This document shows positions 4,728-31,101 of a DNA stretch of 34,244 nt, piece after piece. The stretch spans positions 1 to 34,244 of the forward strand of contig JAUYDD010000067.1 in NCBI GenBank assembly GCA_030704765.1, written 5' to 3'. The DNA comes from Nanobdellota archaeon. GTDB taxonomy: Archaea > Nanobdellota > Nanobdellia > Pacearchaeales > GW2011-AR1. The notes below the pieces were generated by a model, which made no database searches, was not told the DNA's origin, and worked only from the letters and a program-made list of their open reading frames with translations. Positions within the stretch are counted from its first letter, which is position 1. Every line of letters starts with the position of its first letter. The position numbers and the translations under genes were made by a program.

Positions 4728-5366
4728 TCAATTGTTTTGAAAATTTTTTAGTATCCTCCTTTTTTGTTCTTCAGGACCTATATAATCTGCATGACATTCT
4801 TTCAAGTAAAAATAAATAGGTTCAAAATGAGGTATACTAATCTTAAACCATTCTTTCATTGAAATCCCTAAGGAATGTCCCAATGCTGTTCTTAGAACTA
4901 CGTTATGACTACATATGGCTATAGATTTATCAGGATAATTTTTTAAACCTTGGATAAAATTTAAATAACGATTGAGAACGTCCTGACTATTTTCTCCATT
5001 TGGAAATCTCGGGTCTTCGCCTCTTTTCCATGCATCAAATAATTGAGGATATTTTTCTTGCGCTTGTTTTAAATATAACCCATCAACATCACCATAATCG
5101 ATCTCTAAAAGATTAGAATCTGTTATTATTTTATTTTCTGTTAATAGTTGTAATGTCTGTATGCATCTTTTTAATGGAGAAGAAATAAATAAAGTACATC
5201 CAGCTATTCCTTTTTTAGTTTTTTCTGTGGAATCAGGAGACGAAGGCATTATGGAAGGATCCATTCTACCTAAAAATTTTACACCTAAATCTTTATTAAG
5301 AATATTTCCTCCGGTTTCAAGATGTCTTAAAAAAACTAATTTCTTCTCTAAATTTTCTGTTTTCAT
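4728..5366 (-). CDS. Histidine phosphatase superfamily protein
   Basis: LVFLRHLETGGN, SSPLKRCIQT, EIDYGDVDG, ICSHNVVLRT. Confidence 0.85.
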   Translation of the reverse strand: MKTENLEKKLVFLRHLETGGNILNKDLGVKFLGRMDPSIMPSSPDSTEKTKKGIAGCTLFISSPLKRCIQTLQLLTENKIITDSNLLEIDYGDVDGLYLKQAQEKYPQLFDAWKRGEDPRFPNGENSQDVLNRYLNFIQGLKNYPDKSIAICSHNVVLRTALGHSLGISMKEWFKISIPHFEPIYFYLKECHADYIGPEEQKRRILKNFQNN

Positions 5367-5369
5367 TTT

Positions 5370-7883
5370 TTATAAATTTTTTAATATTTCCTTAATCTGA
5401 TTGTCAGTTAGTTCTATATAAAGCCTACTATTTTTAGTTAAAATAAATCTTATTGGTTCAAAATCAGGGATATTTAGTTTATACCATTCTTTCATTGGAA
5501 TTTTTAAATAACTTCCTATTAAACATCTTAAAACAACATTATGGGTGCAGAGGGCTATCTTGTTGTTTTTTATATTTTTTATATTTTTTAAAAAACTATA
5601 GAGTCTAAGTAAAACATCTCTTTGGTTTTCTCCATTTGGAAACTTTGGATCGTTGCCAAATTCCCATTCGTCTATAATTTTTGGATAATTTTTTATTAAA
5701 TAATCCAAATCTTTTCCATCTAATTCTCCGTAATTTATTTCGTTTAAACGATTATCGAGAGTTATATTCTTTTCCGTTAATAATGAAAGGGTGTTTTTGC
5801 ATCTTAAAGATGGGGAAGAGAAAAATATTTCATAGTCAGATAGGATATTTTTTAGATTATTTATTTCTTTTTTATCAGGATAAATTAATTCAGGGTTTGA
5901 TTTTTGCCCGATAAATTGATTTTCATAAGCTTTTGTTTTTACATGCCTTAGAAATATTATCTCTTTATTAGAATTGTAAAAATAATCTTTAAATTGAGAT
6001 TCATAATCAGATAAAAAAAATTCAATATGTTTTAATATATTTTTTATAGAATCGTAGTTTCTTCTTTTTTTAATTTTTATTAAATCGTTTATAAATTTTT
6101 TATGTAATTCTTTATTTTTTGGAAAAATTTTAAAATACGCATCCATAGCTTCATTAATATCATAATCTTTATTTTGCCTATAGTATAATTTTAATAAATT
6201 AGACATCAAGAAACGCATAATATGATAAGAAAATTCTATCCTGTCCCTTGAATCCATTAATTTATAATCTTTTTTTTCAATAACCTTGTTTTTTTGGATA
6301 ATATATTTTCTATAAGATAATTTATTTTCTTTTATTTCAGAAAGATATTCTTTAGAACTTCTTCTAGAATCAAAAAAATTAGAAGGTTGCAAATGATAGA
6401 CCTTATATAATTCAGACATAGATTTCTTAAAAAAAATCCCTGAATTTTGCCAATCATAACAAGTAAAAGGGCTTTTTATACAATGGTCAATATGGCTTTT
6501 GATATCGTATAGCATTATATGAAAGACAATATTGTCTTTGTTGAATTTTAACGGGCCTAAAGAAGGATTTAATATGACATTATAACCATATTTTGATTCT
6601 ATTTCTTTTTTTATTTTTTCAAAATTTTTAATAACAGACTCGAATTTGTCTTTAGATAATTCATCTAAAATTAATACAATATCAACATCATTTATACCTT
6701 CTATTCCTGAATATTTTGAAAAAGAACCAACAATATTTCCAGATTGTATAAAATCTAAATTTTCTGTTAAATCTCTTATTTTTTTAATAATATCTTTTCT
6801 AAGTTCATTTTCAATATTCCTGTATCTTGAGCTAGTTTTTAATTCTAAGAAAGAAGTTATGGGATCGTCTGATGATAAGATACCTGAAGATGAAACTATA
6901 TATTTTGCATTTATTTTTCCAATATTTGTTGGTTTAACACCTCCATCAAATATTATCTCAAAGTTGTATTTTTTCTTGAATCTATTCAATCTATTTACTT
7001 TTTCTATTGATTCAGTATTAAATATCTGTCCGGATTTTCCAAGTTCATCAATACCCATTACTTGAACAAAATCTATATAAGGAATGTATTTTATTATATC
7101 CTCTATTTTTGAATCTGTTTTTAAACATAATCCTACTTTCTTATTTAAAGACCGGCATAATCTTATTACATCGCTTATATTTTCATCTATCTCAATATGA
7201 AAAGTTATAGAATTTACATTTTTGTATAATTTCTTTATCCAGACTGAAGGATTTTTTGACATTATATGAAGTATTTTCTTAATTACCCAAGCCTTATTTA
7301 TCTCCTTAATTAAAGAAAGATCTATTTCAGGTGCTGAACTATTAAATGATTTATCTATTAAATCTATATGGACAAAATCAGCATAATATCTTATTCTAGA
7401 ATATATCTGATTAATGTCTTTATTTTTATTTAAATAAACAGCTATGCCTACTTTTTTAACAAAATCAAAAGTAATATTTCTATGTGCTGTATAACTTAAC
7501 ATAAAAATTATTGCAGAGGTAACAAATCTTAAAGTTGCGTAACCCAGGGGGATTTTTTCCCTTAATACAGCAATCAAGCCTAAATTAAGAATAAAAGCAA
7601 TTGTTGCTATAGCTAAAAATATAATGAAAGTCCTTCTATTTTTTGATTTTGGAACATGAAAATTAAGTCTTGCATTTAATATAAATCCTAAAGTTACTCC
7701 TATTATAAAACCTATGATAACTTTTAATATAAATGGTATATTATAAACTAATAAATATTTTGCTATAATAACCTCTGTTCCTACTGCAATAAGACCTATA
7801 ATTATATAATTTATAAGATATTGGAACCTATATCTTATAAATCTTAAATTTTTTATTATATTTTTTATATAAGAGGTTACCAT
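5370..7883 (-). CDS. Multidomain fusion: GtrA-like membrane domain + ribulose-phosphate 3-epimerase-like + pol-beta-type nucleotidyltransferase + histidine phosphatase
   Basis: GtrA-like N-terminal TM helices; HIDLID...FHIEID...IIFDGGVKP...IVSSSGI (RPE-like); GSFSKYSGIEGINDVDIVLIL (GS...DxD NTase); IFLRHVKTKAYENQF...SSPSLRCKNT...CTHNVVLRC (histidine phosphatase). Confidence 0.85.
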   Translation of the reverse strand: MVTSYIKNIIKNLRFIRYRFQYLINYIIIGLIAVGTEVIIAKYLLVYNIPFILKVIIGFIIGVTLGFILNARLNFHVPKSKNRRTFIIFLAIATIAFILNLGLIAVLREKIPLGYATLRFVTSAIIFMLSYTAHRNITFDFVKKVGIAVYLNKNKDINQIYSRIRYYADFVHIDLIDKSFNSSAPEIDLSLIKEINKAWVIKKILHIMSKNPSVWIKKLYKNVNSITFHIEIDENISDVIRLCRSLNKKVGLCLKTDSKIEDIIKYIPYIDFVQVMGIDELGKSGQIFNTESIEKVNRLNRFKKKYNFEIIFDGGVKPTNIGKINAKYIVSSSGILSSDDPITSFLELKTSSRYRNIENELRKDIIKKIRDLTENLDFIQSGNIVGSFSKYSGIEGINDVDIVLILDELSKDKFESVIKNFEKIKKEIESKYGYNVILNPSLGPLKFNKDNIVFHIMLYDIKSHIDHCIKSPFTCYDWQNSGIFFKKSMSELYKVYHLQPSNFFDSRRSSKEYLSEIKENKLSYRKYIIQKNKVIEKKDYKLMDSRDRIEFSYHIMRFLMSNLLKLYYRQNKDYDINEAMDAYFKIFPKNKELHKKFINDLIKIKKRRNYDSIKNILKHIEFFLSDYESQFKDYFYNSNKEIIFLRHVKTKAYENQFIGQKSNPELIYPDKKEINNLKNILSDYEIFFSSPSLRCKNTLSLLTEKNITLDNRLNEINYGELDGKDLDYLIKNYPKIIDEWEFGNDPKFPNGENQRDVLLRLYSFLKNIKNIKNNKIALCTHNVVLRCLIGSYLKIPMKEWYKLNIPDFEPIRFILTKNSRLYIELTDNQIKEILKNL

Positions 7884-16587: not shown

Positions 16588-16809
16588 TTATTTAAAGAGC
16601 CTTTTTAACTTATTCATAATCCATTTTTTAGTCTCTTTATTACTCTGAATAACCCAAATAATAATTGTTATAATTACTACTAAAGAAATTAATGGGAAAA
16701 GGTTTACTTCGAAAAAAGTTGTGCCTGTTACTCGAACAATTGCCCCTAAAATAGATAAAGAAATTACTAATTTTAATGTGTTTAGCAAATCTTTTTGGAT
16801 AGTTTTCAT
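16588..16809 (-). CDS. Small two-TM protein, 73 aa
   Basis: Two hydrophobic segments and a basic tail; 17 nt downstream of the HNH gene, same strand. Confidence 0.6.
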   Translation of the reverse strand: MKTIQKDLLNTLKLVISLSILGAIVRVTGTTFFEVNLFPLISLVVIITIIIWVIQSNKETKKWIMNKLKRLFK

Positions 16810-16826: not shown

Positions 16827-18395
16827 TTAGCTTTGTCTGTTTTTTCCTTCATTTAATTCCTTTTGGATTTGCTCTGGAAAATCTGAATCCTTCCATCCTA
16901 ATTGTTCTTTGATTTGATGTATCCCTGATTCCCAGTTATAAGATTCTATTAGGTTATGATTAAATTTCCCTTTAACACTTTCTCTATTGTTTATATCATG
17001 AATTTTTTTATCCATAGGAACTAGGTTCCATATTTCATTATTATATTTATTCCTATCAATATGATGAATAGAAATATTATCTAGAATTTTCTGCCCTTTT
17101 TTCTTCAAATAATCTTCATATTTCCAAACATGGTATAATTTTCCGCTATTTTTAAACACTAAACGGCCTTCTTCGTTAAATCTGAGATTTTGCTTTTGTC
17201 CGGAATCTATTAATGCTTTTTCTTTCCAGTAAGCTTCAGTTCTTTTTTCCAATTCTTTCTCTTTTGTCTTTAATTCTTTCTCCTGTTCCAATAACTCTTT
17301 CCTTTGAATTTTTAATTTATCTTCTGTCTCTTTATTCTTATTTCTTAATCTTATTAATTCTTGTTCATATTTTTCTTTTATCTCCCCTTTAGAATGTCTT
17401 ATTTTTTCTTCTAAATCTTTAATTTCATTTAATCTATTAGCTTTTTGACTTTCTAATTTTTGAATTTCTTTATTCCCCCCTTTGATATCTTCATTTATTC
17501 TTTCTTTCTCCTCACCTAACTTTATTATCTCATTTCTTATATCCTTAACTTTTTCTTCTTCTTTCTGTCTTTCTTTTTTGACTTTACCCCTTTTCCACTT
17601 TTCAATATATAGATAACTTAGTAAGACAACAATAAAAATAATAACTCCAAAAATAGATAGTTGTTTTATTCTCTCTTCCCTCTCTTTTTGTAATTGCTCT
17701 GAACTCTTTAAACAGATTCCTTCCTCAAATCTATCTGACTTACATTCCCATTCGCACATATATGCTTCTCCAACTTCTTTAGTTGAAGGCATTAGGCATG
17801 TTTGATTCTTACAATTAAGTTTTCCATAATGTTCGCAAGAAATTATTTTATCTTTTCCACAAAAACCTACTATATTACATATTGATGAACCGCACTCATT
17901 ATCTGAAATGCATAATGAATTATCATCTAAACATTGTTTTCCATTTGGACAAGTTCTACAAACTTCTTTTTGTTTTTCTACATTTTTATACTCAGAGGAT
18001 ACTTCTGGTTCAATCAGGGTATAATCTAAATCCGTTATACCAATATAGCTATTAAGTTGTGTGTTCACATGCCCATCGTCATATCTATCAGAATCTCGAG
18101 GTTCAACTTTAACTTCAACGCTTTTTACTTCATCAAGTCCAAACCATGTCGAAACAACTTTGTAGTCTAATCTTACTGTAACGGGTATAGTCAAGTTATT
18201 ATATACAGTAAACGAAAGATGACTATTCTCTACCCAAACAAGTTTATCCATCTCCAAATTAGCTCCCACAAAATCGCCATCAAAATAAAACCACTCTTCC
18301 TCTTGAGAATAGGATTCATTAATTTTATATTGACAAGCAGAAACCGAACCTATCAAAAAGACAAACAAAAATAAAATTACAATTAAATTTTTCAT
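16827..18395 (-). CDS. Predicted membrane-anchored HNH nuclease with Cys-rich ectodomain and coiled coil
   Basis: Signal peptide MKNLIVILFLFVFLIGSVSAC; Cys-rich region; TM LSIFGVIIFIVVLLSYLYIE followed by KWKRGKVKK; long charged coiled coil; C-terminal HNH pattern IHHIDRNKYNNEIWNLVPMDKKIHDIN. Confidence 0.85.
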   Translation of the reverse strand: MKNLIVILFLFVFLIGSVSACQYKINESYSQEEEWFYFDGDFVGANLEMDKLVWVENSHLSFTVYNNLTIPVTVRLDYKVVSTWFGLDEVKSVEVKVEPRDSDRYDDGHVNTQLNSYIGITDLDYTLIEPEVSSEYKNVEKQKEVCRTCPNGKQCLDDNSLCISDNECGSSICNIVGFCGKDKIISCEHYGKLNCKNQTCLMPSTKEVGEAYMCEWECKSDRFEEGICLKSSEQLQKEREERIKQLSIFGVIIFIVVLLSYLYIEKWKRGKVKKERQKEEEKVKDIRNEIIKLGEEKERINEDIKGGNKEIQKLESQKANRLNEIKDLEEKIRHSKGEIKEKYEQELIRLRNKNKETEDKLKIQRKELLEQEKELKTKEKELEKRTEAYWKEKALIDSGQKQNLRFNEEGRLVFKNSGKLYHVWKYEDYLKKKGQKILDNISIHHIDRNKYNNEIWNLVPMDKKIHDINNRESVKGKFNHNLIESYNWESGIHQIKEQLGWKDSDFPEQIQKELNEGKNRQS

Positions 18396-29082: not shown

Positions 29083-29625
29083 ATGATAGAAAAAGAAGAA
29101 TATGCAATAGTCCTAGACTATTTACCTTATGGCTATCCATTAGAAAAGAAAATGATGCCAATAGCCCAGGCTATAGGTATTAAAAAATTCACTCTTCTTC
29201 AACTCATACCTCGAAGAGGCATAAAATTAGAAATAGGAGAAAAAGTTTATATTGGAGATGGAAAAAGAGATAAGATTTATTACATATTAGGCAGGCTTCT
29301 TGAAGACAAATTGACTGAGACCGCAAAAAACCAATTGAATGAATTCGTAGGAAAAGAAATATCAGAAAATGAAAAAAAGTTTGTTGAATTCTTTAATACT
29401 GCTGGGGCTATAAACACTAGAATGCATCAATTTGAGTTATTGCCTGGTTTTGGAAAGAAACATACTGAAGCAATATTAAATGAAAGAAATAATAAACCTT
29501 TTGAATCTTTAGAAGACTTGAAGAACAGAGTTTCTAACCTGCCTGATCCAAAAAAAGCAATTGAAAGAAGATTTGTAGAGGAGATAATAAGTAAACAAAA
29601 ATACTATTTATTAATAGGAAACTAA
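29083..29625 (+). CDS. DUF655 family nucleic-acid-binding protein
   Basis: EEYAIVLDYLPYGYP, IGDGKRDKIYYILGRL, HhH-like LLPGFGKKHTEAIL. Confidence 0.88.
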   Translation: MIEKEEYAIVLDYLPYGYPLEKKMMPIAQAIGIKKFTLLQLIPRRGIKLEIGEKVYIGDGKRDKIYYILGRLLEDKLTETAKNQLNEFVGKEISENEKKFVEFFNTAGAINTRMHQFELLPGFGKKHTEAILNERNNKPFESLEDLKNRVSNLPDPKKAIERRFVEEIISKQKYYLLIGN

Positions 29626-29626
29626 G

Positions 29627-30115
29627 ATGGCAGAACAATTACAAAAAGGAAAAATTCCAGAAAAAAAAGATTATGTTTCAATTGTGAGAATCCTGCAGAC
29701 AGATATTCCTGGAAACAAAAATACATTTACAGGCCTTACTTATCTTAAAGGAATATCCTGGTCAATGTCCAATGCTATATGTAAGATATTGAAACTTGAT
29801 CCTAATAAAAAAGTAATAGAATTAGATTCTAAAGATATTGAAAAGATAACTAGTTTTTTAAATAATATTCCCAATGAAGTCCCGGTTTTTTTATTAAACA
29901 GAAGGAAAGATTTTGATACAGGGAAAGATTTCCATTTGACTGGAAATAATCTTGAAATGAGAAAAGAGTTTGATGTCAGGAGACTTAAAAAAATAAGGTC
30001 TTATAGAGGGTTAAGACATGCTACAGGCCAACCTACAAGAGGGCAAAGGACAAAAAGCCATTTTAGAAATAAAAAGAAAAATAAACCTATTGGAGTGAGT
30101 AGGAACAAAAAATAA
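29627..30115 (+). CDS. rps13: 30S ribosomal protein S13
   Basis: VRILQTDIPGNKNTFTGLTYLKGISWSMSNAIC...YRGLRHATGQPTRGQRTKSHFR. Confidence 0.96.
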   Translation: MAEQLQKGKIPEKKDYVSIVRILQTDIPGNKNTFTGLTYLKGISWSMSNAICKILKLDPNKKVIELDSKDIEKITSFLNNIPNEVPVFLLNRRKDFDTGKDFHLTGNNLEMRKEFDVRRLKKIRSYRGLRHATGQPTRGQRTKSHFRNKKKNKPIGVSRNKK

Positions 30116-30116
30116 A

Positions 30117-30659
30117 ATGCCAAAAAGAAGCAGAAAAAAATATTCAAGACCGAGAAAACCTTATGACAAAACAAGGATAGATGAAGAGAACAAACTTAGA
30201 GAAGCTTATGGGTTAAAAAATAAAAGAGAGATATGGAAAGCTGATGCTGCTATAACTAGAGTCAGAAACCTTGCAAAAGAACTTATCACTAAATCTGTAG
30301 ACGAAAAAGAACTTTTCATAAAAAGACTGCAAAAAAGAGGATTTGATGTAAAAAGCATAGCAGAATCTCTTGCATTAGATAAAGAAGATTATCTTAAAAG
30401 AAGACTGCAGACTATAACCTATAAAAAAGGATTGACAACCACCCCTAAACAAGCAAGACAAATGATAGTTCATAAGCATATATCTATAGGTGATCAAATA
30501 GTGAATATACCTTCTTACCAAGTATCTTTAGATGAAGAACATTTAGTCAAGCTAAACATTGTATTAAAGATAAAAGAACAAAAAAAATCAAAAGAAGAAA
30601 AAATAAAAGAAGAGATCCTAGAAGAAGAAAACCTGAATAACCAAATTATGGAGATTTAA
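30117..30659 (+). CDS. rps4: 30S ribosomal protein S4
   Basis: KKYSRPRKPYDKTRIDEENKLREAYGLKNKREIWKA; S4 domain QARQMIVHKHISIGDQIVNIPSY. Confidence 0.95.
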   Translation: MPKRSRKKYSRPRKPYDKTRIDEENKLREAYGLKNKREIWKADAAITRVRNLAKELITKSVDEKELFIKRLQKRGFDVKSIAESLALDKEDYLKRRLQTITYKKGLTTTPKQARQMIVHKHISIGDQIVNIPSYQVSLDEEHLVKLNIVLKIKEQKKSKEEKIKEEILEEENLNNQIMEI

Positions 30660-30660
30660 G

Positions 30661-31101
30661 ATGAGTGAAAAAACAATAAAAAACAAAGAAACTGAAGAAG
30701 AAAAAAGAGAGAGTATAAAAAAGAAAGAAGAAAGAATAGGTATACTCAATATCTATACTACTTTTAATAATACTATAATCAATTTGACTGATATGGCTGG
30801 AAACACCTTGGCTAAGTTCTCTGGAGGACAATCTACAAAACAATCAAGATTAAAAGCTAATCCAACAATTGCTATGTTTGTTGCTCAAAGGATTGCTGAA
30901 GAAGCTAAAGACAACGGAATTACAGGGTTTTATGTCAGGATAAAAGCTGAAACAGGCCAGAATAATCCGGGACCTGGTGCTCATTCTGCTATCAAATCAC
31001 TTACAAGAGCTGGTTTTAAGATAGTAAGCATAATGGATACTACTAAAATGCCGAGAGGCGGACCTAAAAAGAAAGGAGGCAGGAGAGGTAGAAGAGTTTA
31101 A
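30661..31101 (+). CDS. rps11: 30S ribosomal protein S11
   Basis: GILNIYTTFNNTIINLTDMAGN...PGPGAHSAIKSLTRAGFKI...GGPKKKGGRRGRRV. Confidence 0.97.
   Translation: MSEKTIKNKETEEEKRESIKKKEERIGILNIYTTFNNTIINLTDMAGNTLAKFSGGQSTKQSRLKANPTIAMFVAQRIAEEAKDNGITGFYVRIKAETGQNNPGPGAHSAIKSLTRAGFKIVSIMDTTKMPRGGPKKKGGRRGRRV

Follow-up and report, generated by a model that had tools for sequence, protein, structure and literature searches.

A predicted surface receptor with a membrane-tethered HNH nuclease in DPANN archaea, a candidate guard against invading DNA

Kiwa couples a membrane sensor, KwaA, to a cytoplasmic partner, KwaB. In type II Zorya a membrane complex recruits the HNH nickase ZorE (PMC11890865), and SNIPE (PD-lambda-1; Saxton et al. 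2026, PMC13190303) combines a transmembrane (TM) segment with DUF4041 and GIY-YIG domains. The Escherichia coli SNIPE protein has its N-terminus outside, one TM helix, a middle domain that binds DNA and a GIY-YIG nuclease in the cytoplasm; it cuts phage DNA during injection, and SNIPE lacking the TM segment attacks the genome of its host (PMC13190303). CRISPR-Cas and restriction-modification are under-represented in DPANN archaea, which seem to favour compact single-gene systems (PMC12988326). Here we describe a DPANN gene whose predicted product invites comparison with these systems. It lies in what we call the window, the whole 34,244-nucleotide stretch of DNA that was analysed, from a Nanobdellota archaeon; SecD from the receptor-bearing contig is 73% identical to SecD of two congeners, and the contig is therefore assigned to its DPANN genus. 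The 522-aa open reading frame (ORF) is real and lies on the minus strand, a preliminary description having named no strand. The features of the gene and of its immediate neighbours are these:

16827..18395, minus strand: receptor-like HNH nuclease gene, 522 aa, its layout repeated in 15 other genes
18336..18395, minus strand: predicted signal peptide, residues 1-20
17958..18335, minus strand: predicted extracytoplasmic Ig-like beta-sandwich, residues 21-146 (AlphaFold2 pLDDT 90, all-beta)
17691..17957, minus strand: Cys-rich stalk, residues 147-235 (near-invariant Cys columns in 20 ectodomains)
17604..17660, minus strand: predicted single TM helix, residues 246-264, N-out/C-in by the positive-inside rule
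17184..17603, minus strand: predicted cytoplasmic charged coiled coil, residues ~265-404 (matches of SMC/leucine-zipper type)
16830..17183, minus strand: HNH_3-type nuclease domain, residues 405-522 (invariant residues, AlphaFold2, Pfam HNH_3 in homologues)
16998-17066, minus strand: HNH catalytic motif HHIDRNKYNNEIWNLVPMDKKIH, residues 444-466, within the last 118 residues
18392..18688, minus strand: ribbon-helix-helix (RHH; CopG/Arc-type) gene, 98 aa (Pfam RHH_1, E=4e-6), sharing an ATGA overlap with the receptor gene
16594..16809, minus strand: 72-aa ORF with two TM segments, just downstream of the receptor gene

The anatomy proposed in the preliminary description was borne out. Kyte-Doolittle analysis finds two hydrophobic segments in the window protein and no others, at residues 3-21, as expected of the proposed signal peptide, and at 246-264, the single TM helix. 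Lysine and arginine number four in the 15 residues that precede this helix and eight in the 15 that follow, matching the basic stretch described there, and the C-terminal half of the protein is therefore predicted to lie inside. Fourteen cysteines of the mature protein fall before the helix, on the outside, and none after it, in agreement with a Cys-rich extracytoplasmic region. The long charged coiled coil is likewise present, at residues ~265-404, and its length differs between homologues; its matches to models of SMC, JetC, LmuB and tape-measure proteins were discounted as an effect of composition. Codon-position composition is even along the reading frame, including across the TM junction, which, together with the repetition of the layout in independent assemblies, excludes an assembly or frameshift fusion. 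That homologues might lack the TM helix and ectodomain had been a concern; the close homologues carry both. We regard it as virtually certain that the receptor-HNH architecture and the family it defines are real.

The C-terminal HNH pattern noted earlier is the motif HHIDRNKYNNEIWNLVPMDKKIH, a form that arose in 2 of 200,000 shuffles of the window protein. The window protein itself matches Pfam HNH_3 (PF13392) at E=0.0022, under the curated cut-off, and PHROG 15471 HNH weakly (E=3e-4); homologues pass the HNH_3 cut-off over the same domain (E=1.7e-12 for the genes at loci L022 and L130, with L088 likewise matching). H33, H55, H56, D58, N68, L69 and H77 of the domain, forming the pattern H-H-x-D...N-L...H, are invariant in 15 of 15 sequences, and dN/dS over the HNH part is 0.12-0.20 in two close pairs, the mark of purifying selection. 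A check by structure prediction gave a divided answer: the AlphaFold2 model is confident (pLDDT 89.5), with two strands flanking the motif and a poorly helical third HNH element, and Foldseek places I-HmuI second, as the best HNH match, at a non-significant E-value of 1.9; entries for Cap5, Cas9 and retron Ec83 rank lower, none significantly. In a profile search of PDB sequences I-HmuI stands near the top (E=0.022), in an alignment that includes the catalytic motif. Given the non-significant Foldseek value, the assignment of an HNH fold rests mainly on the sequence profiles of the homologues. The conservation argues strongly that the window receptor is very probably an active nuclease. Homologues of the same architecture, the asymmetry of cysteines and charges, the invariant catalytic residues and purifying selection give strong support to the earlier reading, in which a sensor outside the cell is joined to a DNase-like domain in the cytoplasm.

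The ectodomain is modelled by AlphaFold2 as a beta-sandwich of ~126 residues, followed by the Cys-rich stalk. The mature window protein begins with the near-invariant Cys of a CQY motif, and an alignment of 20 ectodomains has 14 near-invariant columns, 12 of which are Cys. No Pfam family matched the ectodomain, and Foldseek against the PDB gave generic beta-sandwich matches and no informative family. The beta-sandwich is the likely recognition module. Queried whole against the genome contigs and viral contigs, the protein gave zero matches, so that an ectodomain profile was needed to find relatives; profile matches covering the Cys-rich stalk had E-values as low as 1e-78. A search with the HNH part turned up homologues within the same archaeal family, six of them with the complete layout or its visible part, the layout being signal peptide, ectodomain, TM helix, linker and HNH. 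After profile searches and a contig scan, the fusions in this forward order total 16 genes, the window gene and 15 others, in 15 genomes that belong to many families of a single archaeal class and on one additional contig. They are those of the window, G064, G080 (probably a single gene split across two contigs), G147, G066, G196, G103, G401, G234, G427, G339, G510, G520, G552, G689 and L098. Those records whose titles were shown are named as Nanoarchaeota, Pacearchaeota or Woesearchaeota. Across these fusions 12-24 cysteines lie outside, against 0-3 inside. Weak HNH matches in G013, G133, G026, G045, G186, G005 and G137 were discarded as chance matches or as HNH proteins that are soluble or unrelated.

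The distribution is sporadic, with the receptor present in a few percent of genomes: ectodomain profile matches occur in 9 of 200 genomes of the order and in 14 of 371 in a sample of the phylum, all within one class. The receptor is absent from all searched congeners of the window genome, and the NIF3 gene that flanks it in the window is absent from the congeners compared. PADLOC holds no model for the family. The L098 gene (L098:3489-5348) is a complete receptor-HNH gene whose contig bears the label of an Omnitrophica WOR_2 bacterium metagenome-assembled genome; the contig may be misbinned, or the gene may have been transferred to bacteria.

Among described systems, SNIPE offers a precedent for the receptor. 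Like SNIPE, it is predicted from sequence to be N-out with a single TM helix, a long cytoplasmic middle and a C-terminal nuclease at the inner face; both have a variable N-terminal part and are effectively single-gene. There are differences as well. The receptor carries an HNH nuclease instead, with no GIY-YIG or DUF4041 match in a Pfam scan; it has a large, conserved secreted ectodomain, whereas the N-terminus of SNIPE is variable and its TM segment lies within the first 70 residues; and it is archaeal, has an exchangeable nuclease and, in one order, an RHH partner. The best explanation, which is one of analogy, is that the window receptor would work like SNIPE yet is unrelated to it. Zorya type II (ZorAB and ZorE) likewise ties an HNH nuclease to the sensing of phage attack at the membrane and has a long cytoplasmic tail, but it consists of an ion-driven, MotAB-like motor, ZorAB, and a soluble ZorE, whereas the receptor is one single-pass chain. 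The receptor is not Zorya; no ZorA/ZorB MotAB-like genes were found among the neighbouring ORFs read and the selected neighbours scanned for families. Kiwa resembles the receptor in pairing membrane sensing with a cytoplasmic partner, and a KwaB-like gene neighbours the receptor in G689, although the protein families differ and the receptor is a single chain.

The same ectodomain is found with other effectors. In G289 the ectodomain and TM helix precede a UvrD-like helicase (1195 aa; UvrD E=1e-46), and in G095 and G193 an ectodomain-TM protein without an effector of its own adjoins a gene for a restriction-type Mrr_cat nuclease with a TM segment of its own at the end; G372 has an ectodomain-TM protein alone. 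At the G289 locus (L082:7694-11281) the gene for the membrane-anchored UvrD-like helicase is followed by a separate soluble HNH gene, and at L080:7793-10101 and L081:7593-9676 a three-gene operon encodes a small Zn-ribbon protein, an Mrr-type nuclease with a C-terminal TM segment and an ectodomain-TM protein. UvrD matches to GajB were set aside as generic to UvrD helicases, and PADLOC matches of G095 neighbours (a helicase and an AAA ATPase) were considered broad-family and not counted as evidence for a defence island. A reversed order also exists: in G130 and G197 an N-terminal HNH_3 domain (E=1e-9 and 3e-6) is followed by a TM segment and a C-terminal domain, without a Cys-rich stalk. The C-terminal domain of G130 is related to part of the window beta-sandwich (BLAST E=9e-7), and that of G197 was matched through that of G130 (9e-5); the charges around the TM segment place the HNH domain inside in G130 and are less clear in G197. 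Further matches to the reversed-type ectodomain, in G021, G079, G116, G144 and G088, look unrelated. That both domain orders combine the same two functions argues that selection maintains the coupling of outside to inside.

Ectodomain and effector modules are, judging from pairwise identities, exchanged between lineages. The HNH parts of G196 and G103 are 93% identical and their ectodomains 44%; for G080 and G147 it is the stalk that is close (81%) and the HNH part that is distant (31%); and the RHH proteins of the window and G196 share 89% identity, against 36% for the receptors of the same pair.

What the analysis shows is the anatomy and predicted topology of the receptor, its conservation and operon linkage, the swapping of effectors and one copy in a defence island; its ligand, DNA target, activation and antiviral role are ones that we infer. 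We consider a role in conflict with invading DNA to be likely. Somewhat less firmly, we favour a more specific proposal, that the receptor is a surface-sensing, membrane-tethered anti-DNA immunity nuclease of DPANN archaea that acts as a direct defence against entry. The secreted beta-sandwich and disulphide-rich stalk on the cell surface would recognise an invader, which might be a virus particle, an injection or fusion apparatus, or a conjugating or parasitising cell. The TM helix and coiled coil would hold the HNH nuclease against the inner side of the membrane, placed to nick or cut incoming DNA, and the tether, perhaps with autoinhibition, would keep it away from the chromosome. The overlapping RHH gene would hold expression of a risky nuclease low, and recombination would exchange ectodomain and effector. 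Surface-triggered defence, one of three roles first suggested for the gene, is favoured by the effector swaps, by the recombination of modules, by a sporadic distribution and by the single defence-island copy, although distribution and shuffling would also fit other roles in conflict, such as a toxin or the exclusion of conjugation. The shortage of CRISPR and restriction-modification in DPANN archaea and their compact systems (PMC12988326) fit a defence based on a single-chain receptor; if the proposal is true, a surface receptor and an intracellular nuclease in one chain would be a compact answer to the problem of virus resistance in DPANN archaea. It would also mean that archaea independently evolved the guarding of membrane entry, for which SNIPE is so far the bacterial example, using another nuclease and a true ectodomain. 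The broader suggestion is more tentative, and we put it at slightly under even chances: that these proteins form a new class of prokaryotic surface immune receptors, one ectodomain family whose interchangeable effectors (HNH, UvrD helicase, Mrr nuclease) destroy DNA inside, and which gene transfer has carried and recombined among DPANN archaea.

The RHH gene is an operon partner of the receptor gene, its product probably a repressor or antitoxin-like. The RHH family lies upstream of 7 of 7 forward HNH fusions in the order of the window, overlapping the receptor gene in the window, G064, G080, G147, G066 and G103 and lying 88 bases upstream in G196. In a set of 180 genomes from the order, the RHH family turns up eight times, seven as receptor partner and once in G150 (Fisher p=7e-12, without correction for relatedness). 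In G150 (L116:7374-8395) the RHH gene overlaps a gene for a Zn-ribbon and VRR-NUC nuclease, a pair that is possibly a soluble sister of the window operon. Short RHH genes overlapping the downstream gene for a toxic enzyme are familiar from type II toxin-antitoxin systems, and one could suppose that an RHH antitoxin restrains a membrane-anchored DNase toxin that, on a trigger from outside or inside, cuts the cell's own chromosome in abortive infection. The consistent position of the RHH gene, its place ahead of the VRR-NUC nuclease in G150 and the conserved C-terminal segment of the RHH protein agree with such a scheme. Against it, the RHH gene is not directly upstream of the receptors of other orders (G401, G234, G427, G339, G510, G520, G552 and G689), so the nuclease can be independent of RHH, for which a regulatory role is more likely than that of an obligatory antitoxin; in addition, the enzyme here resembles a membrane receptor, and type II toxins do not feature a large conserved ectodomain. 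We therefore consider a toxin-antitoxin role unlikely, though it fares best among the alternatives to anti-entry defence.

Genomic context bears on both anti-entry defence and a role in DNA uptake. The receptor gene of G689 lies in a defence island with a complete type I restriction-modification system (HsdM, HsdS, HsdR) and KwaB-like and NYN genes; it overlaps a downstream 245-aa gene that has no Pfam match, and HsdR is near. The same defence-rich region includes a HEPN/nucleotidyltransferase pair (L131:1909-2980). This is the one clear defence island among ~20 receptor loci, most of the others lying among housekeeping genes. An integrase is near the receptor gene in G064, and T4SS-pilin-like genes (a weak match) surround it in G401; at L088:6702-7288, in G520, a small gene pair upstream of the receptor looks by eye like an MqsR/MqsA toxin-antitoxin. 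The pilin-like genes, and the fact that HNH, helicase and Mrr parts are all suited to handling incoming DNA, could be read as signs of uptake or salvage, in which DNA entering from hosts or the environment would be processed at the membrane by the nuclease, the helicase or the Mrr protein. This second of the roles first suggested is less supported than surface-triggered defence: sporadic occurrence in a few percent of the genomes, recombination of modules and a copy in a defence island ill suit a basic nutritional function, and the other loci read show no linkage to competence or pilus genes. We think it rather improbable.

The remaining explanations concern what the HNH domain does and where. 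If the protein were a signalling receptor, with an HNH domain that is merely DNA-binding or a structural remnant, the sub-threshold HNH_3 score of the window protein and its poorly helical third element would be understandable; the catalytic positions invariant in all 15 sequences under purifying selection would not, and HNH is replaced in relatives by DNA-attacking enzymes and not by DNA-binding domains, making this very improbable. HNH domains are frequent toxin tips and DPANN archaea live attached to other cells, so one might imagine a contact-dependent effector that delivers its HNH domain outward against a host or rival cell. The positive-inside rule and the Cys asymmetry place the HNH domain inside, however, and neither the protein nor the loci read contain secretion repeats, a releasing peptidase domain or a conserved immunity gene, and we give this reading very little weight. 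The last suggestion, a selfish homing-type HNH endonuclease with a captured membrane anchor, is scarcely credible: the HNH_3/I-HmuI type is that of homing endonucleases and the motif H-H-x-D...N...H is shared, yet the domain is fused to a conserved ectodomain and TM helix without intron, intein or homing context, has an RHH partner, effector swaps and reversed versions, and finds no relative among the viral contigs and phage records searched.

ORFs with two TM segments and of a size similar to the 72-aa ORF also follow the receptor gene in G196 and G103. Elsewhere in the window, at 4728-7883, a 212-aa ORF matches the C-terminal portion of its 837-aa neighbour at 43% identity, a tandem partial duplication, and the plus strand at 29083-31101 carries tightly spaced ORFs of like size (180, 162, 180 and 146 aa).
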